A DNA stretch of 61,559 nucleotides from Sedimentisphaerales bacterium (GCA_028282745.1 JANQHJ010000001.1:1-61559), one strand, 5' to 3'. Positions 2-15,671 are shown, counted from the stretch's first letter. Made by a program: numbers and translations. Notes: generated from the sequence alone by a model not told the origin.

Positions 2-646
2 GGAGGCGGTATCGATCAGGGGCTGAGGTTCAAGGCTGTACAGATCGGCGGGCCATCCGGAGGGTGTATCCCTGCCGAACTAACCGACGTACCGGTGGAT
101 TTCGAATCTTTGACTGAATTGGGCGCGATAATGGGATCGGGCGGATTGGTCGTGCTCGATGAAACAGACTGCATGGTAGATATCGCCCGGTACTTCCTTG
201 AGTTCACACAAAATCAGTCGTGTGGTAAATGCACTTTCTGTCGCATAGGTACGCGTCGAATGCTCGATATACTTGACAGGCTCTGTAATGCGGAAGGTAA
301 AGCAGGGGATATAGAAGAGTTGCTGCGCCTCGGGGCTATGGTACAACACGGCAGCTTGTGCGGGCTTGGTAAGACAGCTCCGAATCCGGTTCTGTCCACG
401 ATAAAATATTTCCGCGATGAATACGAAGCACATATTAACGGCCGATGCCCTGCAGGTAAATGCAAGTCGATGATTAGTTATCGTGTAACTGATGATTGTA
501 TCGGTTGTACTCTCTGCGCACAGCATTGCCCGGAAGACGCGATAGAGATGAAGCCTTATGAAAAACATGATATTGACCAGGATAAATGTGTTCAGTGTGA
601 TACGTGCAAGCGGGTTTGTCCGCAGGGCGCGGTGATAGTTGAATAA
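2..646 (+). CDS. NuoF/HydB-like NADH-binding flavoprotein subunit, C-terminal part
   Basis: The 5' part lies outside the window; the reading frame is open from base 2. The visible 214 residues hold the end of the NuoF FMN/SLBB region (GGPSGG), then the NuoF-type [4Fe-4S] site (CGKCTFC plus a later Cys), then a C-terminal two-cluster ferredoxin ([11 protein letters not shown] and [11 protein letters not shown]). A ferredoxin tail on NuoF is typical of soluble NAD-linked bifurcating hydrogenase, formate dehydrogenase and Hyl-type complexes rather than of respiratory complex I. The next gene starts 3 bases after the stop and supplies a NuoG-like [2Fe-2S] domain, so the two are probably subunits of one cytoplasmic NADH-ferredoxin electron-transfer complex. 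The terminal substrate subunit is not visible. Confidence 0.9.
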
Positions 647-649
647 AAA

Positions 650-2194
650 ATGGCGAAACTAACAATAGACAATCAATTTGTTGAAGTGCCGGATGGTACA
701 ACTATTTTATATGCTGCCGAGCAGCTTGGTATAGACATCCCCACAATGTGTTATATCAAGGACTTTGAGCCGTCGGCAAGCTGTATGATGTGTATTGTAC
801 AAATCGAAGGAAGCGGTGATTTTGTTCCATCCTGTGCCGCTATAGTTGAAGATGGGATGGTAGTTACCACTGATAACGAACAGATCAGAGAAGCCAGGAA
901 AACAGCCTTGGAATTATTACTCAGCGATCATTATGGTGACTGTATGGGGCCTTGCCATTTGATTTGTCCTGCGCAAATGAATATTCCTTTAATGATCCGG
1001 CAAATAGCTGCTGGTCAATTAACAGAAGCGATCAAGACGGTGAAAAAAGATATTGCACTGCCTGCCGTTCTTGGACGGATCTGTCCGGCGCCATGTGAAA
1101 AAGGATGCAGGCGGAGTTTTTGTGACGAGCCTGTTTCAATTTGTCTTCTCAAGCGTTTTGTCGCGGATGTTGACCTGAATTGCGAACAGCCTTATCGACC
1201 GGAATGTAATGAATCGACAGGTAAAAAAGTTGCGGTGATCGGAGCGGGGCCGGCTGGTTTAGCTGCAGCTTATTATTTGAAGCAACGGGGAGTTGATGTT
1301 GTAATCTATGATAAGAACGAACAAGCCGGTGGGATGCTCAGGTATCAGGTTAATAAAGAATTTTTGCCAGTTGAAGTTTTAGAGAAAGAAATACAGCAGA
1401 TAATAGGCCTGGGTATAGAATTAAAACTTAATACTGAAGTTGATAAAGATATTACTTTCGATGAGATTAAGAAAAGCTATGATGCAGTTTTTATTGCTAT
1501 TGGAAATGCTGAACATGATTTCAACGTTGAAAAGACAGATAAAGGTATTGTGATTGACAAAAAAACTTATCAAACTTCGGTTCAGGGTGTTTTTGCCGGC
1601 GGTGATATTGTTCGACAAAGAAAACTTACAGTTCGCTCTGTTGCCGATGGTAAAGAAGCGGCTGTTTCTATCTGTCAATATTTAGCGGAGCAGCAAGTCA
1701 CCGGAGTAAAAAGGCCGTTCAATACTCGCATCGGAAAGATCGATGAAAGCGAAACCCAGGAATTCCTCAAAACGGCGAATAATTCCGGCAGGACTTCTCC
1801 AGAGAATTTAGAAAATGGGTTTACCGGGCAACAGGCGATAGAGGAAGCGAAAAGATGTTTGCATTGTGACTGTCGTAAGGCGGACAATTGTAAATTGAGA
1901 GATTACAGTGATGGATATGGTGTATCGGCATCGCATTTTAAATACAGCAAGCGAAAATTTGAGCAGTGCATATCGCATCCGCAGATAATTTATGAGAGCG
2001 GCAAATGTATCGATTGCGGCATCTGTGTTAAGATAGCCGCCCAACAAAAAGAGCAATTAGGGCTGACATTCATCGGCAGGGGATTCGATGTTAGAGTAGC
2101 TGTTCCCTTTGATAATAAGCTGAAAGAGGCCCTTATAACGACCGGAGGCCAATGTGTCAGGGCCTGTCCGACGGGGGCCCTGGCTTTTAAATAG
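650..2194 (+). CDS. NuoG-type [2Fe-2S] / GltD-like FAD iron-sulfur protein without NAD(P)H domain
   Basis: A 514-residue protein. Residues 1-80 are a NuoG-type [2Fe-2S] ferredoxin with C34, C45, C48 and C62. Residues 95-185 carry GltD-type cysteines (GRICPAPCEKGC). The FAD-binding GAGPAG lies at 198-203 and the second FAD motif GGD at 317-319. A C-terminal Fe-S region follows (CLHCDCR, CIDCGICVK, CVRACPTGAL). In ordinary GltD about 280 residues separate the two FAD motifs, because an NAD(P)H-binding domain is inserted between them. Here only about 115 do, and YDAVFIAIG is followed within some 15 residues by the GGD-side segment, so the NAD(P)H domain is absent. NADH would then be handled by the NuoF-like partner encoded 3 bases upstream. 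Electron bifurcation is inferred from this pairing, not shown. Confidence 0.88.
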   Translation: MAKLTIDNQFVEVPDGTTILYAAEQLGIDIPTMCYIKDFEPSASCMMCIVQIEGSGDFVPSCAAIVEDGMVVTTDNEQIREARKTALELLLSDHYGDCMGPCHLICPAQMNIPLMIRQIAAGQLTEAIKTVKKDIALPAVLGRICPAPCEKGCRRSFCDEPVSICLLKRFVADVDLNCEQPYRPECNESTGKKVAVIGAGPAGLAAAYYLKQRGVDVVIYDKNEQAGGMLRYQVNKEFLPVEVLEKEIQQIIGLGIELKLNTEVDKDITFDEIKKSYDAVFIAIGNAEHDFNVEKTDKGIVIDKKTYQTSVQGVFAGGDIVRQRKLTVRSVADGKEAAVSICQYLAEQQVTGVKRPFNTRIGKIDESETQEFLKTANNSGRTSPENLENGFTGQQAIEEAKRCLHCDCRKADNCKLRDYSDGYGVSASHFKYSKRKFEQCISHPQIIYESGKCIDCGICVKIAAQQKEQLGLTFIGRGFDVRVAVPFDNKLKEALITTGGQCVRACPTGALAFK

Positions 2195-2222: not shown

Positions 2223-2400
2223 ATGACTATGGAAAAGAACTACACAACAACGATGATAAGCAGAAAGATTCAGGCTTTTACCTTGATAGAGCGGCTGGTG
2301 GTAATGTTGGTTTGCTCGATGCCTCTGTAGCCTGGAGGAAAATTGAGGATATGAAAATATATCCCGGTTCTAATAATAGCAATGCAAAAATATGCCTATC
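2223..2400 (+). pseudogene. remnant of a type IV prepilin-like (FTLIE) gene
   Basis: Reading from the ATG at 2223 gives a 35-residue peptide containing QAFTLIERLVVML, which matches the prepilin cleavage/methylation motif (FTLIE followed by a hydrophobic helix). It stops at a TAG near 2330. In another frame the reading continues (SVAWRKIEDMKIYPG) up to a stop at 2409, as expected for a frameshifted remnant. The helix has an Arg directly after the conserved Glu and is very short. It is most likely a decayed pseudopilin or DUF1559-type N-terminus, families that are abundant in Planctomycetes. No other recognisable domain follows. Confidence 0.5.
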
Positions 2401-2441
2401 TTACTGGTAATGATGAAAGTTGTAATAATAAGGAGATAGAT

Positions 2442-3656
2442 ATGTACGGTGGTAAAAAGGTTCTACTAACAAGCGTTGTATCATTACTTGTCATTCTGTT
2501 TTTGATTTCAGCCGCTAATGCCGATGATTGGCCTTGTTGGCGTGGGCCCGACAGAGATGGGATATCTAAAGAGGTGGACTTTTTGACAGAATGGCCGGAT
2601 GGCGGGCCGAAAGTATTATGGAAGAATAAGATCGGCAAAGGATTCTCTTCAATTGCCATAGCCGATGGCCGGGCATATACCAGCGGCAATTCTTTTAATA
2701 AAGATACCATTTTCTGTTTTGACGCGTTAACCGGTAAAGAGCTGTGGAAGCATACTTATGATGAGTCGCTCGACCCTAAATGGTATGAAGGCGGTACCAG
2801 CGCTACACCGGTTGTTGACGGCGAGCTTGTTTATACATGTAGTAAAAGTGGAAAGGTGTTTTGTCTGAAAGTCGCCGACGGCAGTGTTAAATGGGGCAAG
2901 GATCTTAAGGAAGATTTCGGTATTGAACCGCCGACATGGGGATTTTCGGGCTCGGCTGTGATAATAGGTGAGCTTGTTATTTTTAATGCCGGCCAAAGGG
3001 GTATTGCCTTCGATAAGATGACCGGCCAATTGAAATGGCAGAGCGGGAAAGAAAAATCCGGCTATGCCTCAGTGGTGCGGTATCCGCAGGACGGGAAAAA
3101 CTATATTTTGATGTTCGGCAGCAAAGCTTTATATTCTCTTGACCCTCAATCAGGACAGGTCAATTGGCAGTTCGAGTGGAAGACACGGCACGGTTGTAAT
3201 GCCGCCGATCCAATCGTTAAAGATGATAAGGTCTTTATCTCGTCAGGCTATGGCAAAGGCTGTGCATTGATACAGATCGTCGATAATGATGTTACCCAGG
3301 TTTGGCGGAATAAAAAAATGAAAAATCATATGAATACCTGCGTGCTTATCGACGGGTATCTATATGGCTTTGACGAGAAGACACTCAAGTGCCTGGAGTT
3401 TGAGACATCAAAAACCTTATGGTCACAGAGCGATCTTGGTAAGGGCTGCCTGATAGCTGCTGATAATAAGCTTATTATTCTCAGTCAAAAAGGTGAGCTT
3501 GTAATTGCCGAGACATCGCCGAAAGGTTTTAAAAAAATAGCGTCCAGTAAAATTTTAACAGAGACTTGCTGGAGTATTCCTGCTTTGGCGAACGGTTTGC
3601 TTTATGCAAGGGATTCGAAGGGTAACCTGGTTTGTGTTGATCTAAGAAAAAAATAA
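2442..3656 (+). CDS. secreted PQQ/beta-propeller repeat protein (BamB-like)
   Basis: A 404-residue exported protein. The start at 2442 is chosen because AAGGAG lies just upstream (2430-2435) and it opens a clear signal peptide (MYGGKK, then a hydrophobic stretch ending ISAANA). The mature protein begins DDWPCWRGPDRDG, the signature of planctomycete PQQ-like beta-propeller proteins. Repeated blades follow, of the type FDALTGKELWKHTY, LKVADGSVKWG and LDPQSGQVNWQ. Such proteins form eight-bladed propellers in the periplasm or outer membrane. Some bind PQQ or assist outer-membrane assembly, but many have no known role. No catalytic residues can be assigned. It sits between the redox pair and the isoprenoid set, with 13 bases to the next gene, so it may be co-transcribed with the latter. 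Confidence 0.85.
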   Translation: MYGGKKVLLTSVVSLLVILFLISAANADDWPCWRGPDRDGISKEVDFLTEWPDGGPKVLWKNKIGKGFSSIAIADGRAYTSGNSFNKDTIFCFDALTGKELWKHTYDESLDPKWYEGGTSATPVVDGELVYTCSKSGKVFCLKVADGSVKWGKDLKEDFGIEPPTWGFSGSAVIIGELVIFNAGQRGIAFDKMTGQLKWQSGKEKSGYASVVRYPQDGKNYILMFGSKALYSLDPQSGQVNWQFEWKTRHGCNAADPIVKDDKVFISSGYGKGCALIQIVDNDVTQVWRNKKMKNHMNTCVLIDGYLYGFDEKTLKCLEFETSKTLWSQSDLGKGCLIAADNKLIILSQKGELVIAETSPKGFKKIASSKILTETCWSIPALANGLLYARDSKGNLVCVDLRKK

Positions 3657-3669
3657 CGAAGGAGTTTCA

Positions 3670-4461
3670 ATGTCAGAACCGGTATCTATTTTGTTTTGTA
3701 ACTGCTCGCATTCGGATATTATAAAGAGTGGAGTAAAATCCGCTGTGCTCGAAGCTCTTCAGCAAAGAGGTATTGTTTTTAAAGGGCTCAATGGCCTTTG
3801 CCGGGCCGCTAAAGAGAGGCAGCCTTTTCTAAAAGAATTTGCCCAGCACGGCGGCTTGGTGATAGCTTGTTATCCCAGGGCGGTTAAATGGCTGTTTCAC
3901 TGGTCGGGAAATCCTTTAGATGAAGACAAAGTGACGATCCTGAACATGAGAACCCAAAACCCGGAATTAATTATTAGCGAGCTGGACAAACTGCTAACTG
4001 CAAAGGGTGAGCCGGTAATTGATAAATTTGTTGGTGAGGATAACTGGATCCCATGGTTTCCTGTAATAGATAAGGATAGATGCTCGAACTGTAAACAGTG
4101 CATGAATTTTTGCCTGTTCTCAGTTTATAAACAATCCCAAGAAGGGCGTGTAATAGTTGAAAACCCGGCTAACTGCAAAACCAATTGCCCGGCTTGCGCG
4201 AAAATGTGTCCACAGCAAGCCATCATATTCCCTAAGTATGAGCATTCACCGATCAATGGTGACGAGGTGATGTCTGAAAATGAAGGTGATACAAAACAGG
4301 ATCCGGCAAATATTGATATTAACAAAATGCTCAGGAACAGGCAAAAAGGCGGTGTCGATGCGTATAAAGAAATAGCGAAAAAACTTGATATACCTTCCGA
4401 TGTTCTGGATTCCATGGGGCCGCTGGATGTCGACAGGGTGAATGATTTGATTGAAGATTGA
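3670..4461 (+). CDS. two-cluster [4Fe-4S] ferredoxin-type protein with HdrA-like N-terminus
   Basis: A 263-residue cytoplasmic protein preceded by GAAGGAG. Residues 1-100 contain FCNCSH, LCRAA and IACYPRAVKWLF, resembling the cysteine-bearing N-terminal segment of HdrA-type subunits. Residues about 135-190 form a bacterial ferredoxin domain with two cysteine sets (CSNCKQCMNFC and CKTNCPACAKMC), enough for two [4Fe-4S] clusters. The C-terminal 70 residues are charged and resemble no family I recognise. The stop is 2 bases from the start of the radical SAM gene, and the following genes overlap or nearly touch, so it probably donates electrons to that enzyme within one operon. The physiological partner is inferred. 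Confidence 0.82.
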   Translation: MSEPVSILFCNCSHSDIIKSGVKSAVLEALQQRGIVFKGLNGLCRAAKERQPFLKEFAQHGGLVIACYPRAVKWLFHWSGNPLDEDKVTILNMRTQNPELIISELDKLLTAKGEPVIDKFVGEDNWIPWFPVIDKDRCSNCKQCMNFCLFSVYKQSQEGRVIVENPANCKTNCPACAKMCPQQAIIFPKYEHSPINGDEVMSENEGDTKQDPANIDINKMLRNRQKGGVDAYKEIAKKLDIPSDVLDSMGPLDVDRVNDLIED

Positions 4462-4463
4462 TA

Positions 4464-6032
4464 ATGGCTGAACGTAAGCTCCAACCTAAGGTCATACTTG
4501 TAGCCGACCGGACACTAAGCGCAAATTACCCCACACTTTTTGACGGTATGTTCGCGACTATGCAGACAACACAGGTGCCTTCGTTAATGATGAAGCACTT
4601 CGTCGCTCCGCCGGTTCCGACTGATAAACAAGCAAGAGCTGAATTTGCGCCCATAGGACTTCGCCGTATCCAGTCTGCTTTAATAAAATATAATCAACTT
4701 GATATTGACGACGTTGTCTGTACCACTCCCGAAGCTTTACAAAAATTGTTAGGCCCCTGGGTAGAGATCGTTGCTGTCAGTTCCAGCGATCCGCTTGGTC
4801 ATGGTATGAGCAATACCACGACTTCGAATTTTTGGAAAGGTGAACTTTATACGTGGTTATTTACACGTCAGCTACTTGAAGTTTTATATAAAGCAAAACA
4901 AAAATATAATTTTAAGATTATCGGCGGCGGAGCCGGTGCCTGGCAGTGGAAAGCGTTTCCCGATGATACAGCCCGGAGAACGCTCGACGTAGTCTATGAA
5001 GGCTATTTCGAATCCGCGGGCTGTGCTTTGTTTGAAGAAATTCTATCCGGGAAATCTATTGATCATCATGTCCAGTGCAACGATTCAGGCGTTGATCGCA
5101 TCGTCCCTATTAAAGAGGCTTCGATATTCGGCTCAGTCGAGTTGTCGCGCGGGTGCGGTAGGGGATGTTGCTTCTGCAGTATGTCAGATCAAAAAATGGA
5201 GCACCTGCCAGCGTATATTATTTTAGCCGACATCGAAACTAATATTGCCGCAGGTTTAACTTCCGTTGTCAGTACAAGCGAAGACCTGTTTCGCTATGGT
5301 GCGGTAGGCCTAAGGCCTGATTTTGAAAAGCTTACTTCGTTACTTGATAAGATGCGCCGAATCAGGGGTATCGGGTTTATGCAGATCGACCATGTTAATG
5401 TTACAAGTGCCGCACAGCTTACAAACGAACAATTGTGTGAGATAAAAAGATTACTCTCCTGGAACATCTCGCATAAGCATCTCTGGGTGAATCTTGGAGT
5501 TGAAAGTGCCAGCGGTGAACTTGTCAAAGCTAATTGTCCTGGAAAAGTCGCGCCGTACGATGCCGATGACTGGGCCGAATTGGTTAAAGAGACCGCTTTA
5601 AGGCTACTCGAAACAGGCTATACACCTGTGCTTAGTCTCGTATTAGGCCTGCCTGGTGAGACTCCAGGTGATATTTCCCTGACGCAGAAACTGGTTAACA
5701 GCCTTGGTGATAAAGGCGTAGTTATCTTCCCGATATTTTATGAGCCTGTCGATGTAAAGGATTACAAGTCTCAAGATCGATTTACTATCGAGGAAATGCG
5801 GTTGGACCACCTGAATCTATATCGCAGTTGTTACGAGATAAATTTCAGAAATGTGCCCGGCCTTATATACGACAACCAAACCGCGGCTGGTGTAAAATTA
5901 ACCAAAAGGGTTGCAATGCAGATGCTTGGAAAAGTCGAAATAATGAACTGGCGTCGAGCGTTTAATAAAATTGGGAAAAAGCTTGCTGATAGTTCACTTT
6001 CTGCCCAGAGGAGTGTTGGATATGCTTCGTGA
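4464..6032 (+). CDS. cobalamin-type (B12-binding) radical SAM protein
   Basis: A 522-residue protein. The ATG at 4464 is preferred over the in-frame TTG at 4458. The N-terminal 215 residues are a Rossmann-like domain of the kind found before B12-dependent radical SAM domains, with a DPLGHGMS segment near residue 110 and an IIGGGAGAW glycine motif near 152. The radical SAM cluster motif CGRGCCFC (C231, C235, C238) follows a conserved ELSRG. The rest forms the TIM-barrel half (VNLGVESASGELVK, LSLVLGLPGETPGD). Known relatives methylate or rearrange lipids, hopanoids (HpnP) and antibiotics. The genomic position suggests action on an isoprenoid made by the next genes, but the substrate is unknown. 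It overlaps the next gene by 11 bases, which points to translational coupling. Confidence 0.85.
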   Translation: MAERKLQPKVILVADRTLSANYPTLFDGMFATMQTTQVPSLMMKHFVAPPVPTDKQARAEFAPIGLRRIQSALIKYNQLDIDDVVCTTPEALQKLLGPWVEIVAVSSSDPLGHGMSNTTTSNFWKGELYTWLFTRQLLEVLYKAKQKYNFKIIGGGAGAWQWKAFPDDTARRTLDVVYEGYFESAGCALFEEILSGKSIDHHVQCNDSGVDRIVPIKEASIFGSVELSRGCGRGCCFCSMSDQKMEHLPAYIILADIETNIAAGLTSVVSTSEDLFRYGAVGLRPDFEKLTSLLDKMRRIRGIGFMQIDHVNVTSAAQLTNEQLCEIKRLLSWNISHKHLWVNLGVESASGELVKANCPGKVAPYDADDWAELVKETALRLLETGYTPVLSLVLGLPGETPGDISLTQKLVNSLGDKGVVIFPIFYEPVDVKDYKSQDRFTIEEMRLDHLNLYRSCYEINFRNVPGLIYDNQTAAGVKLTKRVAMQMLGKVEIMNWRRAFNKIGKKLADSSLSAQRSVGYAS

Positions 6033-7695
6033 TTCACTTTTCTTAGATAGAGCATCACATCCGGCTCAGGCTAATATACCTGCCGATAAAGCTGTACGTG
6101 AAAAAGTACTGCTGTTGGCCCGTGATTATATAAGTAAAGAAAAGACAGCCGGGCCTGTCTCTTTGGCACACCTTGAGCAAATTTGCGATAAAATTATAGA
6201 GCAATCTGAGATATCGAAGCAATACAAGGATTTTTTATCTGTTCTGGTTAATAACGAGATTTGGCGTGATGCGGTTGCTGCTATCCCTTATGACAAACGC
6301 TTGCTGCTGCTGCCAAAGTGTCTGCGAGATGCGGAAAATTGCAAAGGCCATTTTGATAATGTCGGCCTGCTCTGTGCTCATTGCGGCAATTGCATAATTG
6401 ACAGGTTGCAAAGTGACGCCGAAAAACTCGGCTATACTGTTCTAATAGCTGAGGGCTCGCCGATTGTCATATCTCTCATACAGACAGGTCAAATCGAATG
6501 TATTATTGGAGCCTCCTGTCTTTCGGTTCTGGAACAGACATTCAAATATATGGAAGCCGGTGCCATCCCCGGCATCGCGATTCCATTATTATACGATGGC
6601 TGTAAAAATACTTTTCTTGATATTGACTGGCTAAGTGACGCAATATATGACAGCCGGGCTGAGAGAAATCAGCGGCTCAATTTACGAATAATCTGTGGTC
6701 AGATAAAAGAGCTGTTTAATGAAGCACAGCTAAAAGGCTTGCTTGTACAAGAAAATGATCCCACTGAACAGATCGCACTTGACTGGATGTGTTGCTCAGG
6801 TAAAAGATGGCGGCCTGCTATTATGGCCTGTACTTATGCGGCTCTAAGTTATAGAGATTTTAAATTTACTGATGAAGTTATTCAGTCAGCTGTCGCCGTC
6901 GAATGTTTCCATAAAGCCAGCCTGATTCATGACGATATCGAAGACGGCGACATGCAGCGGTATGGCAAAAAAACACTGAACGCCGAATACAATACGGGCA
7001 TAGCTCTTAATGTCGGCGATTTTCTGCTTGGCGAAGGTTATCGCCTTTTAGCGGAATTGGATGTTGACAGCGATAGAAAAAATCAGATGCTAAGCACAGC
7101 TGCTTTGGGGCATCGGAATCTTTCACTTGGTCAGGGCAGGGAGCTTTTATGGAGCTATGAGCCCGGGCCGTTAAGTGTCGAAGATGTGCTGGCAATCTTC
7201 GAAAAGAAAACCGCGCCGGCATTTGAAGTTGCACTTAAAACAGGGGCGATATTAGCTGGTCAGGGTGGAAAATATGATGATATTTTTACTCAATACAGCA
7301 AATATCTTGGCATCGCTTATCAAATTCAGGATGATATCGATGATTATGATAAACCTTGTGACTCTAATGACCTTTTACATAACAGGCCGTCGATAATTCT
7401 TGCTTTGACTTATAGAGCCGCGACCGCAGAACAGAAAAACAGTATTGAACAATTCTGGAAAAATGACCCGGCAGATCAGACTGTTCAGCAGAAAATACAT
7501 GAAATGATTGCGGCTGCTCACAGCAGGCGAACTGCTCTTGAGATGTTATCTTTATATAAAGATAAGGCGGTTAATTCTCTTACTGAGCTGAAGAACCAAA
7601 ATCTCAAGGGGTTCTTTAGAATTGTGGTCAGTAAATTGTTCCATGAAATTGAAGTGATGCTGTGCTGTGACGACGATCCGAAAAGAAATGATTGA
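6022..7695 (+). CDS. DUF116 - trans-polyprenyl diphosphate synthase fusion
   Basis: A 557-residue two-domain protein. The start at 6022 is set by AGAGGAG (6007-6013). Residues about 85-210 are DUF116: LLLLPKCLRDAENC, then CAHCGNC (C118, C121, C124), IIGASC and a downstream DGCKNT, a cysteine pattern likely to bind a metal or Fe-S cluster. Residues about 225-530 are a class I (E)-polyprenyl synthase with GKRWRP (260-265), the first Asp-rich motif DDIED (304-308) and the second DDIDD (437-441). All catalytic aspartates are present. It should join isopentenyl units into a linear prenyl diphosphate; chain length cannot be read reliably. Fusing DUF116 to a prenyl synthase is unusual and suggests that the prenyl product or its synthesis is linked to redox or metal chemistry. 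It overlaps the upstream and downstream genes. Confidence 0.9.
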   Translation: MLRDSLFLDRASHPAQANIPADKAVREKVLLLARDYISKEKTAGPVSLAHLEQICDKIIEQSEISKQYKDFLSVLVNNEIWRDAVAAIPYDKRLLLLPKCLRDAENCKGHFDNVGLLCAHCGNCIIDRLQSDAEKLGYTVLIAEGSPIVISLIQTGQIECIIGASCLSVLEQTFKYMEAGAIPGIAIPLLYDGCKNTFLDIDWLSDAIYDSRAERNQRLNLRIICGQIKELFNEAQLKGLLVQENDPTEQIALDWMCCSGKRWRPAIMACTYAALSYRDFKFTDEVIQSAVAVECFHKASLIHDDIEDGDMQRYGKKTLNAEYNTGIALNVGDFLLGEGYRLLAELDVDSDRKNQMLSTAALGHRNLSLGQGRELLWSYEPGPLSVEDVLAIFEKKTAPAFEVALKTGAILAGQGGKYDDIFTQYSKYLGIAYQIQDDIDDYDKPCDSNDLLHNRPSIILALTYRAATAEQKNSIEQFWKNDPADQTVQQKIHEMIAAAHSRRTALEMLSLYKDKAVNSLTELKNQNLKGFFRIVVSKLFHEIEVMLCCDDDPKRND

Positions 7696-8548
7696 AGCGG
7701 TATGCCGTTCGAAGCAGTTACTTGCTGTTGACGTCCCGGATATTATAGCTTTTTTGAATGATAAACAAAATCCTGACGGTGGTTTTCGAGGACGTTCCAA
7801 ACACAGCGATATTTATTACACTTTATTTGCATCTGAAGCATTAATAGCTCTTGGGGCAAAATTGCCTGCTAAGTTAATAAAGAAATATCTTAAAGGCCTT
7901 TTAGATAATCTTCCTTGTGACCTTATCCATTTGGCGAGTTTAATACGTTGTTATGCTGATTTTACGTCTGAAGAATTAGCTAACTATAAAGATATTTTTG
8001 TCGAGCGGCTTGAGCAGTGTCATGTCAAAAAAGACGCGGGTTATGAATGTTATAAAAATAGCGGTGGTTCTTCGTACGGATGTTTCTTGGCCTTAGCGGC
8101 TTATCAGGATTTGGAGAGCGATCTGCCTGATCCGGATGGAATTATAAAATTTCTGCAAACACTGTGTATTAATGACGGGGGGTATTGTAATGAGCCGGCG
8201 TTACCATTCGCATCTACACCGGCTACCGCTGCTGCTATAACTACTTTACATTATCTAAATGCTAAGATATCGGAGGATGCCTTAGTATTTTTAAAAAACT
8301 GCTTTGAAGAAGATGGCGGTTGCAAAGCCGTCGCTGGTGCAAAACAACCCGATCTGCTTTCAACCGCGGTTGCGATTCATAGTTTATCTGTCGTCGATAA
8401 GTTAGGCCTTATCGATAAAAGGCCGACACTGAGTTTTATTAAAAGTCTTTATCATGATGGCGGTTTTTGTGCCGGGTTGGATGAAACAGTACTGGATTGC
8501 GAATACACTTATTATGGTTTACTTGCCCTTGGCCATCTTGTAGATTAA
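7688..8548 (+). CDS. prenyltransferase/squalene-oxidase repeat protein, single small barrel
   Basis: A 286-residue protein. The ATG at 7688 overlaps the upstream stop (ATGATTGA), which favours it over an in-frame GTG at 7667. It consists of about five alpha-alpha repeats of the prenyltransferase-beta/terpene-cyclase type: QNPDGGF near residue 26, CINDGGY, FEEDGG and LYHDGGF, ending in CEYTYYGLLALG, which resembles the end of protein prenyltransferase beta subunits. There is no DxDD motif, so protonation-initiated cyclisation by this protein alone is unlikely. Its size fits one alpha6-alpha6 barrel. It lies between the prenyl synthase and the class II cyclase (8 bases to the latter) and could be a partner subunit or a prenyl-binding protein; that role is inferred. 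Confidence 0.82.
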   Translation: MIEAVCRSKQLLAVDVPDIIAFLNDKQNPDGGFRGRSKHSDIYYTLFASEALIALGAKLPAKLIKKYLKGLLDNLPCDLIHLASLIRCYADFTSEELANYKDIFVERLEQCHVKKDAGYECYKNSGGSSYGCFLALAAYQDLESDLPDPDGIIKFLQTLCINDGGYCNEPALPFASTPATAAAITTLHYLNAKISEDALVFLKNCFEEDGGCKAVAGAKQPDLLSTAVAIHSLSVVDKLGLIDKRPTLSFIKSLYHDGGFCAGLDETVLDCEYTYYGLLALGHLVD

Positions 8549-8555
8549 AAGCGAT

Positions 8556-10370
8556 ATGGATATTAACGTTTCTAAACTGCAAGCAGTCATTAATTCCCTT
8601 GAGACGGAACTTTTCAATCGACGCAATAATGATGGTTATTGGGAGGGACGTCTTTCCAGCAGTGCTCTTTCAACTGCAACAGCTGTTTTTGCATTAGCCG
8701 TTGTTGATAGAGAAAAATACGACGTGCTTATAAACAAGGGTGTGTACTGGCTCTGCGGGAATATTAACGATGATGGCGGGTGGGGAGATACTATACGCAG
8801 TAAAAGTAATATAAGTACAACGCTTCTTGCATTAACAGCTATTTCCTATATCAACAGAAATGAACATGAAAAAACGATAGGCTCTGCTCAAAAATGGCTA
8901 ACTAAACGGGCTGGAAGTTTAGAGCCTAAGGCTTTGATAAAAGCTATAGATCAAAAGTACGGCGATGACAAAACTTTCTCATGCCCTATTTTGACTATGG
9001 CTGCCTTGGGAGGTGTTTTAGGGAGTAACGTAAAGATTTGGGATAACATCAAAGCTTTGCCTTTTGAGTTGGCTGCGTTTCCGCAGTCATGGTTTCGCTT
9101 TTTAGGATTACCTGTTGTCAGTTACGCCCTGCCGGCCCTTATCGCAATTGGCCAGGTTAATTATTTTCATAAAAAACCCGGCAATCTTTTAGTAAGCCTC
9201 ATTCGAAAAATAACTATTCATCGAACCAGAAAAGTATTGCAAAAAATTCAACCTCAAAGCGGCGGCTTTCTTGAAGCTGCGCCTCTAACAAGTTTTGTAG
9301 TAATGAGTTTGGCGTCGATGGGATTAAGCGATTACCCTGTAGTAATAAAAGCGGTTCGATTTTTAGAAAGCAGTGTTAGAGATGACGGCAGTTGGCCGAT
9401 CGATACGAATCTTGCGATCTGGGTGACAACACTTTCGGTTAATGCTTTATCAATAAAAGAAAAGCTAAGTGAAATATCCAAGACAAAAGACTGGTTGTTA
9501 TCACAACAATACAAACATAAACACCCTTATACCGGTGCCGAGCCAGGCGGTTGGGCATGGACAAATCTTAGCGGTGCTGTCCCCGATGCGGATGATACGG
9601 CGGGGGCGTTGCTTGCGTTGCGAAATATATCTGGGCCGGATATGAATATAATAAAAGCGGCTCGTTCAGGTATCGAATGGTTATTGGAAATCCAAAATAA
9701 GGACGGCGGTATTCCTACATTTTGTAAAGGCTGGTCAAAACTTCCATTTGATCGTAGCAGTTGTGACCTGACCGCTCATGCCGTTGCCGCTATGTCAGCG
9801 TGGCAGGATTCTTTTGATAGTAAACTAAGAAGAAAAATATCAAAGTCGTTAAGGCGAGCGGTCATATTTTTACAAAAAGCTCAGAATCCGGATGGCAGCT
9901 GGCATCCTTTATGGTTTGGTAATGAATCGGCACCGAAAAGTAACAATCCATCATATGGCTCTGCAGGAGTTTTGACGCATATATCTGCCGTAACATCCGA
10001 TAACAATAGAACTCTGACGCATAATATTCAAAAAGGGCTGAATTGGCTTCTTATTAATCAAAATATAGATGGCGGCTGGGGTGCTGTTAAAGGTGTTTCT
10101 TCGTCAATAGAAGAGACCGCTTGGGTTATTGATGCCTTATCAAGCTTGCTTTTATCCAGCTATGAGATCCAAGGTCAAAATGATATAAAATCTGCAATCA
10201 AAAAAGGATTGGGCTGGTTAATGCCCCGTATTGAAGAGCCCGATAAAATCTCTGCTACTGCTATAGGGTTATATTTCGCCCGGTTGTGGTATTACGAAGA
10301 ATTGTATCCGTTAATATTTTCGCTAAGCGCCATGCAAAAAGTCTGTCTGGTAAAGTCGCTTTTGCAATAA
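8556..10370 (+). CDS. squalene-hopene-cyclase-like class II terpene cyclase
   Basis: A 604-residue protein with the beta-gamma double-barrel layout of squalene-hopene cyclase. The protonating motif is present as DADD (344-347) inside VPDADDTAGALLAL. QW-type repeats are seen (DDGGWGD near 72, DDGSWPIDTNLA near 276, QNKDGG, QNPDGSWHPLWFGNE, QNIDGGWG). The length is slightly below the usual 630-650. It should protonate and cyclise a polyene such as squalene or a longer or oxygenated prenyl chain. No squalene synthase or HpnCDE gene is present nearby, whereas a prenyl synthase lies two genes upstream, so the natural substrate may not be squalene. It is the last gene of the cluster. Confidence 0.85.
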   Translation: MDINVSKLQAVINSLETELFNRRNNDGYWEGRLSSSALSTATAVFALAVVDREKYDVLINKGVYWLCGNINDDGGWGDTIRSKSNISTTLLALTAISYINRNEHEKTIGSAQKWLTKRAGSLEPKALIKAIDQKYGDDKTFSCPILTMAALGGVLGSNVKIWDNIKALPFELAAFPQSWFRFLGLPVVSYALPALIAIGQVNYFHKKPGNLLVSLIRKITIHRTRKVLQKIQPQSGGFLEAAPLTSFVVMSLASMGLSDYPVVIKAVRFLESSVRDDGSWPIDTNLAIWVTTLSVNALSIKEKLSEISKTKDWLLSQQYKHKHPYTGAEPGGWAWTNLSGAVPDADDTAGALLALRNISGPDMNIIKAARSGIEWLLEIQNKDGGIPTFCKGWSKLPFDRSSCDLTAHAVAAMSAWQDSFDSKLRRKISKSLRRAVIFLQKAQNPDGSWHPLWFGNESAPKSNNPSYGSAGVLTHISAVTSDNNRTLTHNIQKGLNWLLINQNIDGGWGAVKGVSSSIEETAWVIDALSSLLLSSYEIQGQNDIKSAIKKGLGWLMPRIEEPDKISATAIGLYFARLWYYEELYPLIFSLSAMQKVCLVKSLLQ

Positions 10371-12990: not shown

Positions 12991-13764
12991 ATGGATAACT
13001 TAGTAATTGCCGGCAGGGAATTTAATTCACGGCTTTTAGTCGGTACTGGTAAATTCGCTTCTTCAAAAGTAATGGCTGATGCCATCGAGGCATGTGGTTC
13101 AGAGATCGTCACCGTTGCCCTTCGAAGAGTTGACATCGAAAATGAAAACGACGACATGCTCTTGGCTATCGACCGTGATAAATATCTTCTGCTGCCGAAC
13201 ACTTCCGGTGCTCGTGATGCCGATGAAGCTGTTCGCTTGGCAAAGCTTGCTCGCGCAGCGAGTAGTATCAACTGGCTAAAGCTCGAAGTAACGCCGGATC
13301 CTTATTATCTATTGCCCGATCCTGTCGAAACTCTCAAGGCCGCTGAGGCGTTGGTCAAAGATGATTTTATAGTGTTGCCATATATAAATGCTGATCCTGT
13401 TTTAGCTAAGAGGCTCGAAGATGCCGGTACTGCAACGGTAATGCCTTTAGCCAGCCCTATAGGTTCCAACCAGGGTATGAGGACACGGGCCGCTATAGAG
13501 ATAATAATCGAGCAGGCTAATGTTCCTGTAGTGGTTGACGCCGGCCTTGGCTTACCATCTCACGCCGCAGAGGCGATGGAGATAGGTGCCGACGCGGTGC
13601 TGGTCAATACAGCAATAGCTACCGCTGCCGATCCATGTGCGATGGCAAGGGCATTCAAACTTTGTGTCAAAGCGGGGCGGACAGCTTATAATTCAGGCCC
13701 GGCTGTCGCTCAGAGAAAGGCGACAGCTTCGAGCCCGTTAACTGGATTTTTGCGCGACGAATGA
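12991..13764 (+). CDS. thiG: thiazole synthase ThiG
   Basis: A 257-residue TIM-barrel enzyme of normal length. It condenses 1-deoxy-xylulose 5-phosphate, dehydroglycine and ThiS thiocarboxylate into the thiazole phosphate of thiamine. Recognisable family blocks are LLVGTGKF near the start, VALRRVD, WLKLEV (with the expected Schiff-base Lys), [13 protein letters not shown], and [21 protein letters not shown]. The start codon is 2 bases after thiS and the stop overlaps thiH. Confidence 0.95.
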
Positions 13765-14927
13765 AAACAATGCAAACTAAATCACAACAATTCAGTTCAA
13801 TATTAACTCTGCGCGGCCTTGATAGAAAATATTCTCAATGGTCGAATGCTCTTAACAACTTTACTGAATCCGATGTGAAGGGGGCTCTGTCAAGTCAGCC
13901 GGGCGTATATCGACCAGAGAAGTTAATGGTTTTAGTGTCACCAGCTGCCCGTGGACATCTTGAGCAGATGGCCCAACTTGCTCATCAGCTAACTGTTCAG
14001 CGGTTTGGCAAAACAATAAAACTTTACGTGCCGTTATATCTATCAAATTATTGCTCAAGCAGTTGTCGCTATTGCGGTTTTAATGTAGATAATAAAATCG
14101 AGCGAAAACGACTTACTATCGAAGAGGCTCTGGAACAGGCTGATATTATAGCCAATGAAGGTTTTCGGGATATACTGCTCGTAAGCAGTGAGGATAGAAA
14201 TTATATCACTGTTGAATACCTTTGTGAGCTTTCAAAGCAGCTGCGGAAAAAGTTCAGCTGTGTCTCTATCGAGGTTTACCAGATGACAGCTGCCGAATAC
14301 TCCGAGCTTTTCGCGGCTGGTATAGAGGGCGTGACGCTCTATCAGGAAACTTATGATCGTGATGTTTACAAGTATTATCATCCGGCTGGGCTAAAGACGG
14401 ATTACGGTCAAAGGCTAAATGTCGCGGATGATATGGCAGCAGCCGGGATGCGTGAGATCGGCTTAGGAGCACTTCTTGGCCTGGCTGACTGGCGAGTCGA
14501 GACGCTGGCGCTTGGTGAGCATGCTCATTATTTAATGAAACGGTATTGGCAGAGCCATATCTCTATATCATTTCCAAGAATCCGGCCGGCCAGTCATGTC
14601 GATGGGCAGCAGTTCGAGCATTTGCTCAGCGATAAGGACATGGTGCAGATGATGCTCGCTCTCAGGCTGTGCTTTGCCGATGTCGGGCTGGTTCTTTCTA
14701 CTCGTGAGCCCGCGTCGCTGCGGGATAATATGGTGTCGCTCGGTATTACACGGATGAGTGCCGGCAGTAAAACGAGCCCCGGCGGGTATTGTAAAACCGA
14801 ACATGCTCTCGAGCAATTCGATGTAAACGACAGCCGATCCGCTTCACAGATAGCAGAGATGCTGAGGGAACGAGGGCTCGACGCGGTCTGGAAAGACTGG
14901 GATTGCGGCTTTATCGATAACAAATAG
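13761..14927 (+). CDS. thiH: 2-iminoacetate synthase ThiH (radical SAM tyrosine lyase)
   Basis: A 388-residue enzyme whose ATG overlaps the thiG stop. It has the radical SAM motif CSSSCRYC (Cx3Cx2C) near residue 100, preceded by YVPLYLSNY, and the ThiH C-terminal region ([22 protein letters not shown]). It cleaves tyrosine to dehydroglycine and p-cresol for thiazole synthesis. ThiH replaces the oxygen-using glycine oxidase ThiO, so its presence fits an anaerobic lifestyle. Confidence 0.95.
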
Positions 14928-14936
14928 CAAAGGTCA

Positions 14937-15671
14937 ATGATGCCATTGAACAAACAACAAACTCGAAGGTATCATCGAAATATTATTCTCGATGAAATCG
15001 GTGTCGAGGGGCAGCAAAAGCTGCTTGACTCCAAAGTTCTTGTTATTGGTGTCGGCGGTCTGGGTTCGCCGGCTGCGATGTACCTGGCAGCAGCGGGTAT
15101 CGGTACTATAGGCATAGCCGACGCTGATAAGATTGAACTATCTAATCTGCAACGACAGATTATCCATCACACAAAGGACCTTGGTGTTAGTAAAACTGAT
15201 TCGGCTTCAGAGAAGCTTTCCGCGATCAATCCTGATGTTAGTATTCGCACATATAATTTACTTGTTAAAGAAAATAACGCTTGTGATATTATTAATGAGT
15301 ATGACTTTGTTCTCGATTGTACGGATAACTTCGAGTCCAAGTTTATGATTAACGAAGCATGTTGCTCTGCGAAGAAACCATTTTCTCATGCCGGCATTTT
15401 AGAGTTCCAGGGTCAATTAATGACCATCTTAGCCGGGCAGACCGCATGCTATAGATGTGTTTTTGACGGCCCGCCGCCAGCAAGCAAAGTTGCTGGTGTG
15501 CTCGGCGTACTGCCGGGCGTGATCGGGTCACTACAGGTTACTGAAGCTGTCAAATACCTTTTAGACATTGGTGGATTACTGACAGATACTCTTTTGACTT
15601 ACGATGCTTTAAAAATGGAATTTCGAAAGGTCACCGTAAAACGCAATCCCAACTGTCCGGTCTGTGGTTAG
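14937..15671 (+). CDS. thiF: ThiF/MoeB-family adenylyltransferase
   Basis: A 244-residue E1-like enzyme with the nucleotide-binding VIGVGGLGSPAAMYLA near residue 35, the family N-terminus RRYHRNIILDEIG, and zinc-binding pairs CYRC and CPVC (last residues NPNCPVCG). ThiF, MoeB and HesA cannot be separated by sequence alone; position as last gene of a TPP-controlled thiSGH operon indicates ThiF, which adenylates the ThiS C-terminus. AAAGG lies just upstream of tandem ATG codons. It may also serve a molybdopterin carrier. Confidence 0.9.
   Translation: MMPLNKQQTRRYHRNIILDEIGVEGQQKLLDSKVLVIGVGGLGSPAAMYLAAAGIGTIGIADADKIELSNLQRQIIHHTKDLGVSKTDSASEKLSAINPDVSIRTYNLLVKENNACDIINEYDFVLDCTDNFESKFMINEACCSAKKPFSHAGILEFQGQLMTILAGQTACYRCVFDGPPPASKVAGVLGVLPGVIGSLQVTEAVKYLLDIGGLLTDTLLTYDALKMEFRKVTVKRNPNCPVCG

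Follow-up and report, generated by a model that had tools for sequence, protein, structure and literature searches.

The closest published precedent for the locus described here is found in Makarova et al. (2015; PMC5898192), whose passage on DUF116 states that this domain is fused to a polyprenyl synthetase in some bacteria, as in Psta_0175 of Pirellula staleyi, and proposes an electron-transfer role and a flavodoxin-like fold for the family. In that passage, the fusion takes up one sentence, with no mention of a gene cassette, an active-site change, a squalene-synthase test or a wider distribution. Because the fusion and the redox idea were both published there, neither is new, and the claim of an earlier note on this DNA, that the fusion gives a first functional hint about DUF116, had been anticipated in print. 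Our search found no other relevant literature naming DUF116. Two further systems are useful for comparison. In the sesquarterpene route of Bacillus, which is squalene-free, heptaprenyl diphosphate is converted to tetraprenyl-beta-curcumene, on which a cyclase of the squalene-hopene cyclase (SHC) family acts. Among trans-IDS-like prenyltransferases, Ord1 farnesylates free tryptophan (PMC13290415).

The fusion studied here has the same two-domain architecture as Psta_0175 and lies in a stretch of 61,559 nucleotides from a Sedimentisphaerales bacterium (GCA_028282745.1, JANQHJ010000001.1:1-61559), hereafter the window. Beyond the published fusion, what is new is the surrounding cassette, the squalene-free genomes and a clade of synthases with an RYG motif; neither the cassette nor the altered active site seems to have been described before, and nothing relevant on the cassette was found in the literature. 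The features of the locus are as follows:

95..2194, + strand: NuoF-like subunit (95-646) and NAD(P)H/Fe-S oxidoreductase (650-2194) (Pfam, NCBIfam)
2382..3656, + strand: PQQ-type beta-propeller protein, a recurrent neighbour (Pfam)
3670..4461, + strand: 4Fe-4S protein; C-terminal ferredoxin region with eight cysteines, N-terminal region uncharacterised (Pfam, alignment)
4458..6032, + strand: radical SAM protein, nearest to the B12-binding type TIGR04013, below the cut-off (Pfam, NCBIfam)
6022..7695, + strand: DUF116-polyprenyl diphosphate synthase fusion, 557 aa (ORF, Pfam, AlphaFold2 model)
6193..6642, + strand: DUF116 domain (PF01976), an alpha/beta Rossmann-like core after three helices (Pfam, domain model)
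6319..6603, + strand: seven conserved cysteines, C100, C107, C118, C121, C124, C166 and C194 (alignment)
6793..7503, + strand: (E)-polyprenyl diphosphate synthase domain (PF00348) (Pfam; nearest solved structures GGPP and polyprenyl synthases)
6931..6966, + strand: first aspartate-rich motif (FARM) DDIED (residues 304-308), followed by RYG (313-315) in place of RRG (Tyr in 40/40 fusions)
7330..7344, + strand: second motif (SARM) DDIDD (residues 437-441) (sequence, alignment)
7667..8548, + strand: small alpha-alpha toroid of the prenyltransferase-repeat family, with conserved DxLST and DxEYTxY (Pfam, alignment)
8556..10370, + strand: squalene-hopene-cyclase-like class II terpene cyclase (Pfam, NCBIfam)
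9585..9596, + strand: DADD, the protonating DxDD motif of the cyclase (100% in 76 homologues)

Elsewhere in the window, a thiamine-type run (ThiG-like, ThiH, ThiF-like; 12991-15671) has no relation to the fusion, and a set of sugar-nucleotide, glycosyltransferase, polymerase and chain-length genes (24148-54493) looks like an exopolysaccharide cluster.

Integrity and Distribution of the Fusion

That the two domains form one protein is a near certainty. Positions 6022-7695 (+) make up a single stop-free frame of 557 codons, in which Pfam recognises DUF116 at residues 58-207 (1.5e-31, 109.4 bits, cut-off 25) and polyprenyl_synt at residues 258-494 (4.2e-41, 141.3 bits, cut-off 27), and the AlphaFold2 model of the whole fusion has a pLDDT of 88.6 and a pTM of 0.85. 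The sequence AGAGGAG lies 8 nt 5' of the ATG at 6022, the first 11 nt of the fusion gene are shared with the 3' end of the radical SAM gene and its last 29 nt with the toroid gene (start at 7667), so that the cassette genes look translationally coupled. A TTG at 5971 is a possible alternative start giving a longer ORF; conservation starts only at about residue 10-20.

Searching with the protein showed the two domains joined in a single stop-free frame in 66 of the 294 genomes of the phylum, this genome included and four of them matched as two pieces of one ORF. DUF116 of whatever kind occurs in 99 of the 294; the fusion-bearing genomes are mostly draft MAGs. According to a scan of named genomes, the planctomycete carriers include Sedimentisphaerales (the nearest, at 49%), Phycisphaerae, Pirellulales, Gemmataceae, Isosphaera and Rhodopirellula, and the fusion is also present in Verrucomicrobia, Lentisphaerae/Kiritimatiellota, Bacteroidota and “Zipacnadia”. 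It is rare in Bacteroidota (1/148 sampled genomes, the sole carrier being the genome on which the sample was centred). One genome (G243) encodes DUF116 and an RYG-type synthase as two separate genes. The earlier note had named confinement to this assembly, or a junction broken in related genomes, as outcomes that would count against the fusion; it is found in 66 genomes of the phylum and in several other phyla, and none of the 66 has a stop at the junction. An assembly or frameshift artefact, for which we found no support, thus has a negligible probability and is refuted by a frame that is open in all these genomes, single-contig ones among them. The description of DUF116 as belonging mainly to anaerobes fits the fused form poorly, since it is carried by Rhodopirellula, Isosphaera and Gemmataceae, whose life is aerobic.

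The DUF116 Domain and its Contexts

The AlphaFold2 model of the DUF116 domain (pLDDT 91.3), with three helices leading into an alpha/beta core, is compatible with the proposed Rossmann/flavodoxin-like fold. Foldseek returned no fold match for this model in the PDB at E<=0.001, and a sequence comparison of DUF116 with the PDB gave no match either. Cobalamin-binding Rossmann domains were considered as homologues and rejected, their weak Foldseek matches (best E 0.019, TM about 0.25) being non-significant.

All seven cysteines are kept in 38 of 40 aligned fusions, and the seven columns, including CxxCxxC, are identical in 13/13 fused and stand-alone DUF116 proteins of archaeal and planctomycetotal origin. 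The earlier note had listed five of them (C100, C107, C118, C121, C124) ahead of an intact synthase: these cysteines, DDIED and DDIDD are indeed present, but C166 and C194, which are as conserved as the other five, were missing from its list, and the synthase departs from the usual pattern in that RYG replaces RRG. Its suggestion of a metal or redox role for the cysteines is supported by their conservation, by their occurrence in stand-alone DUF116 and by the Fe-S and Hdr-like neighbours. Several or all of these cysteines have been lost at five loci that retain the RYG synthase part (L064, L074, L079, L144 and L146), one of them (L064) in a genome, G105, that also has a normal fusion (L056); since these fusions keep the synthase without the cysteines, Fe-S is not always required.

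Stand-alone DUF116 genes are found in other surroundings. Several planctomycetotal copies lie by fmt, those of one family, which we take to be anammox-like, within def-fmt-DUF116-rsmB; the archaeal copies neighbour HdrA-, HdrB/TfrB- and sulfite-reductase-like Fe-S genes, mtnA plus an HdrA-like gene, or hisS. At 2 of the 22 archaeal loci, both Methanophagales-type, DUF116 lies directly upstream of a gene of the geranylgeranyl reductase family (TIGR02032, 233 bits against a cut-off of 159). The idea that stand-alone DUF116 generally accompanies isoprenoid genes was rejected on these numbers, the other contexts prevailing. The tie between DUF116 and isoprenoids is therefore lineage-specific, save at the two Methanophagales-type loci, and the thread common to DUF116 contexts is redox, not isoprenoids. 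Nothing in these data shows DUF116 acting on, or controlling, an isoprenoid diphosphate, as had been suggested. A tandem pair of stand-alone DUF116 genes is found immediately 5' of the geranylgeranyl reductase gene at L183:4607-7128 and at L200:2702-5488; such loci connect DUF116 with isoprenoids independently of any fusion, and are a lead worth following. Another archaeal ORF, of 466 aa (L201:4343-5743), contains two DUF116 domains.

A Synthase Clade with an Altered Acceptor Site

The synthase domain matches the fold of GGPP and octaprenyl diphosphate synthases (GGPPS, OPPS) of solved structure (TMt about 0.8), Ord1 also being among the nearest. It falls in none of the named NCBIfam equivalogs (GGPPS, HepT, octaprenyl and others); the best match, an encapsulin-cargo synthase, was rejected at 114 bits against a cut-off of 450. 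In our tree, the synthase domains of the fusions form one clade with 100/100 branch support against 21 housekeeping synthases, a limited sample of controls found through similarity to the fusion, and are divided into two main clades. The genome of the window encodes a separate housekeeping-type synthase as well.

The fusions share the signature HKASLxHDDxxDxxxxRYG (40/40), in which the second Arg of RRG is replaced by Tyr, while Arg is found in 21/21 housekeeping synthases. In human farnesyl diphosphate synthase (FPPS), Arg113, together with Lys57 and Arg60, contacts the diphosphate of isopentenyl diphosphate (IPP; PMC7815940). The Tyr of RYG stands at the equivalent of Arg113, so that the acceptor site is altered while the metal-binding motifs are intact; as an IPP-contacting Arg has become Tyr, ordinary condensation with IPP is not certain. 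The other IPP-site residues are mostly kept (R264 40/40, H297 40/40, K261 30/40), K298, N330 and A400 are further clade-specific residues, and the second motif starts with ND in 14/40 fusion relatives. All 40 fusions have Ala/Ser at positions -5/-4 relative to the FARM, and small residues ahead of this motif are a mark of enzymes making GGPP or longer chains (PMC7261888), which argues against a product of FPP length without fixing the exact length.

A Conserved Cassette and a Cyclase in Squalene-Free Genomes

The fusion is part of a recurrent cassette. Of 76 loci in which it has full flanks (6 kb or more on each side; not all independent, some genomes having been sampled twice), 64 have an SHC-like cyclase nearby, 51 the 4Fe-4S protein, 42 a radical SAM protein of either of two types, 40 the toroid, 34 a GcvH-like protein and 22 a CobW-type GTPase. 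The same neighbourhood search detected these companions around 0/21 housekeeping synthases and 0/38 stand-alone DUF116 genes, a complete contrast. PQQ-propeller-related genes lie near 17 of the 76 fusions. A conserved fusion within a conserved cassette supports a functional link of DUF116 with isoprenoid synthesis in these bacteria.

Most cassettes encode a SPASM-like radical SAM protein; that of the window, like those of a few relatives, resembles B12-binding ones. C9, an ORF running antisense at the radical SAM position, was discarded; it has no Pfam match and is probably a shadow ORF of GC-rich genomes. Genes for a PQQ-propeller protein, a NuoF-like subunit and an NAD(P)H oxidoreductase precede the cassette both in the window and in a contig from Bacteroidetes (L117), and the latter two are a possible electron source for it. 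The cyclase comes before the fusion in one large planctomycete lineage, which corresponds to one of the two major branches of our synthase tree. GcvH-like genes, such as that at L081:12969-13496 and its relatives, occur in planctomycetotal and verrucomicrobial cassettes with a CobW-type GTPase and sometimes IscS; their products retain the lipoyl lysine (ESSKA / EGFKA), and these genes possibly provide a carrier or sulfur step. The window's own cassette has no GcvH-like gene. Among solved structures, those nearest in sequence to the toroid (7667-8548) are Rab GGTase beta subunits.

The cyclase (8556-10370) has SHC domains (131.7 bits, PF13243) and the DxDD motif (as DxDDT), which is kept in 76/76 aligned homologues. 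It reaches 118 bits against the model of squalene-hopene cyclase proper (TIGR01507), for which the cut-off is 431. The window's genome (G000, 94% complete) has no squalene/phytoene synthase (PF00494) and no second gene with an SQHop_cyclase_C domain. Of 64 fusion-bearing genomes in the phylum, 49 have PF00494 and 15 likewise lack it, several of the latter being 96-99% complete; it is also absent from 11 of 22 named fusion genomes, including the isolate Draconibacterium aestuarii. Since this synthase is missing from many hosts, the cyclase probably takes its chain from the adjoining fusion, which is the most economical interpretation; squalene is excluded as its substrate only in the genomes without PF00494.

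A Possible Pathway and its Alternatives

Taken as a whole, the pathway that we favour, in which a dedicated trans-polyprenyl synthase with an Fe-S redox module works in a squalene-free terpenoid cassette, falls somewhat short of an even chance. The C-terminal domain would make a polyprenyl diphosphate of at least C20, which the adjoining class II (DxDD) cyclase would fold, in place of squalene, into a cyclic lipid, and the radical SAM enzyme and the 4Fe-4S protein may modify or reduce this lipid. Through its cysteines, the N-terminal DUF116 would hold a metal centre, probably Fe-S, and serve as an electron-transfer module linking the synthase with the 4Fe-4S protein encoded in the cassette.

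Alternatively, DUF116 might carry no electrons and have a structural or a regulatory task in the synthase, the latter as a sensor of metal or redox state. Cys-less copies do persist as fusions, the two domains are modelled as one compact unit (pTM 0.85), and a labile Fe-S relay would be costly in aerobes, which are among the hosts; but seven cysteines are maintained in 38/40 fusions and in stand-alone proteins, and the adjoining genes encode Fe-S redox proteins, and we regard such a purely structural or sensory role as rather unlikely. It is unlikely, too, that the synthase domain is a trans-IDS-like enzyme that, like Ord1 or ComQ, prenylates a non-IPP acceptor (a head group, a thiol, a lipoyl group or a cassette intermediate) presented by DUF116 or the GcvH-like protein. 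The retention of R264 (40/40), K261 (30/40), H297 (40/40) and the SARM speaks against such an acceptor, as does the window's cassette, which lacks the putative GcvH-like carrier, even though the R-to-Y change at the Arg113 equivalent of human FPPS (PMC7815940) is invariant, K298, N330 and A400 are specific to the clade, the tryptophan-farnesylating Ord1 (PMC13290415) is among the nearest solved structures, and many cassettes encode a GcvH-like protein with a lipoyl lysine.

An ordinary hopanoid or otherwise squalene-derived pathway, with an incidental extra synthase, is quite improbable. In its favour are the closeness of the cyclase to squalene-hopene cyclases and the presence of PF00494 in 49/64 fusion genomes of the phylum; yet the cyclase scores far below the hopene-cyclase cut-off (118 vs 431 bits), hosts without PF00494 retain both fusion and cyclase, and a synthase next to the cyclase would be redundant. 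In its broadest form, the squalene-free pathway would operate across the PVC group and some Bacteroidota, with an RYG-type DUF116-synthase feeding a class II cyclase, followed by radical SAM, Fe-S and sometimes lipoyl-carrier steps, towards an undescribed membrane lipid or cofactor, DUF116 being a redox partner of isoprenoid enzymes; so extended, the proposal is tentative and leans towards the doubtful side. If the cyclase does use the fusion's product, these groups hold a class of cyclic lipids missed by hopanoid and sterol surveys, with a bearing on biomarkers and enzymology. What was a guess about the function of DUF116 is now testable, with partners, a likely pathway and cultured hosts (Draconibacterium aestuarii, Rhodopirellula species) to name.

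Comparison with Known Systems

With trans-polyprenyl synthases (GGPPS to octaprenyl, PF00348), the fusion has in common the fold, the FARM, the SARM, the Lys/Arg residues of the IPP site and the KT pair; it differs from them by its separate clade, by RYG for RRG and by the fused DUF116. Like the trans-IDS-like prenyltransferases Ord1 and ComQ, it combines the synthase fold with an altered acceptor site. Stand-alone DUF116 proteins (COG1852) of archaea and planctomycetes have the same domain and the seven cysteines, without a synthase and in def-fmt-DUF116-rsmB or Hdr/sulfite-reductase contexts. Finally, the Bacillus sesquarterpene route likewise sets an SHC-family cyclase on a chain derived from a polyprenyl diphosphate, whereas in the cassette described here the cyclase has radical SAM, Fe-S and DUF116 components at its side.
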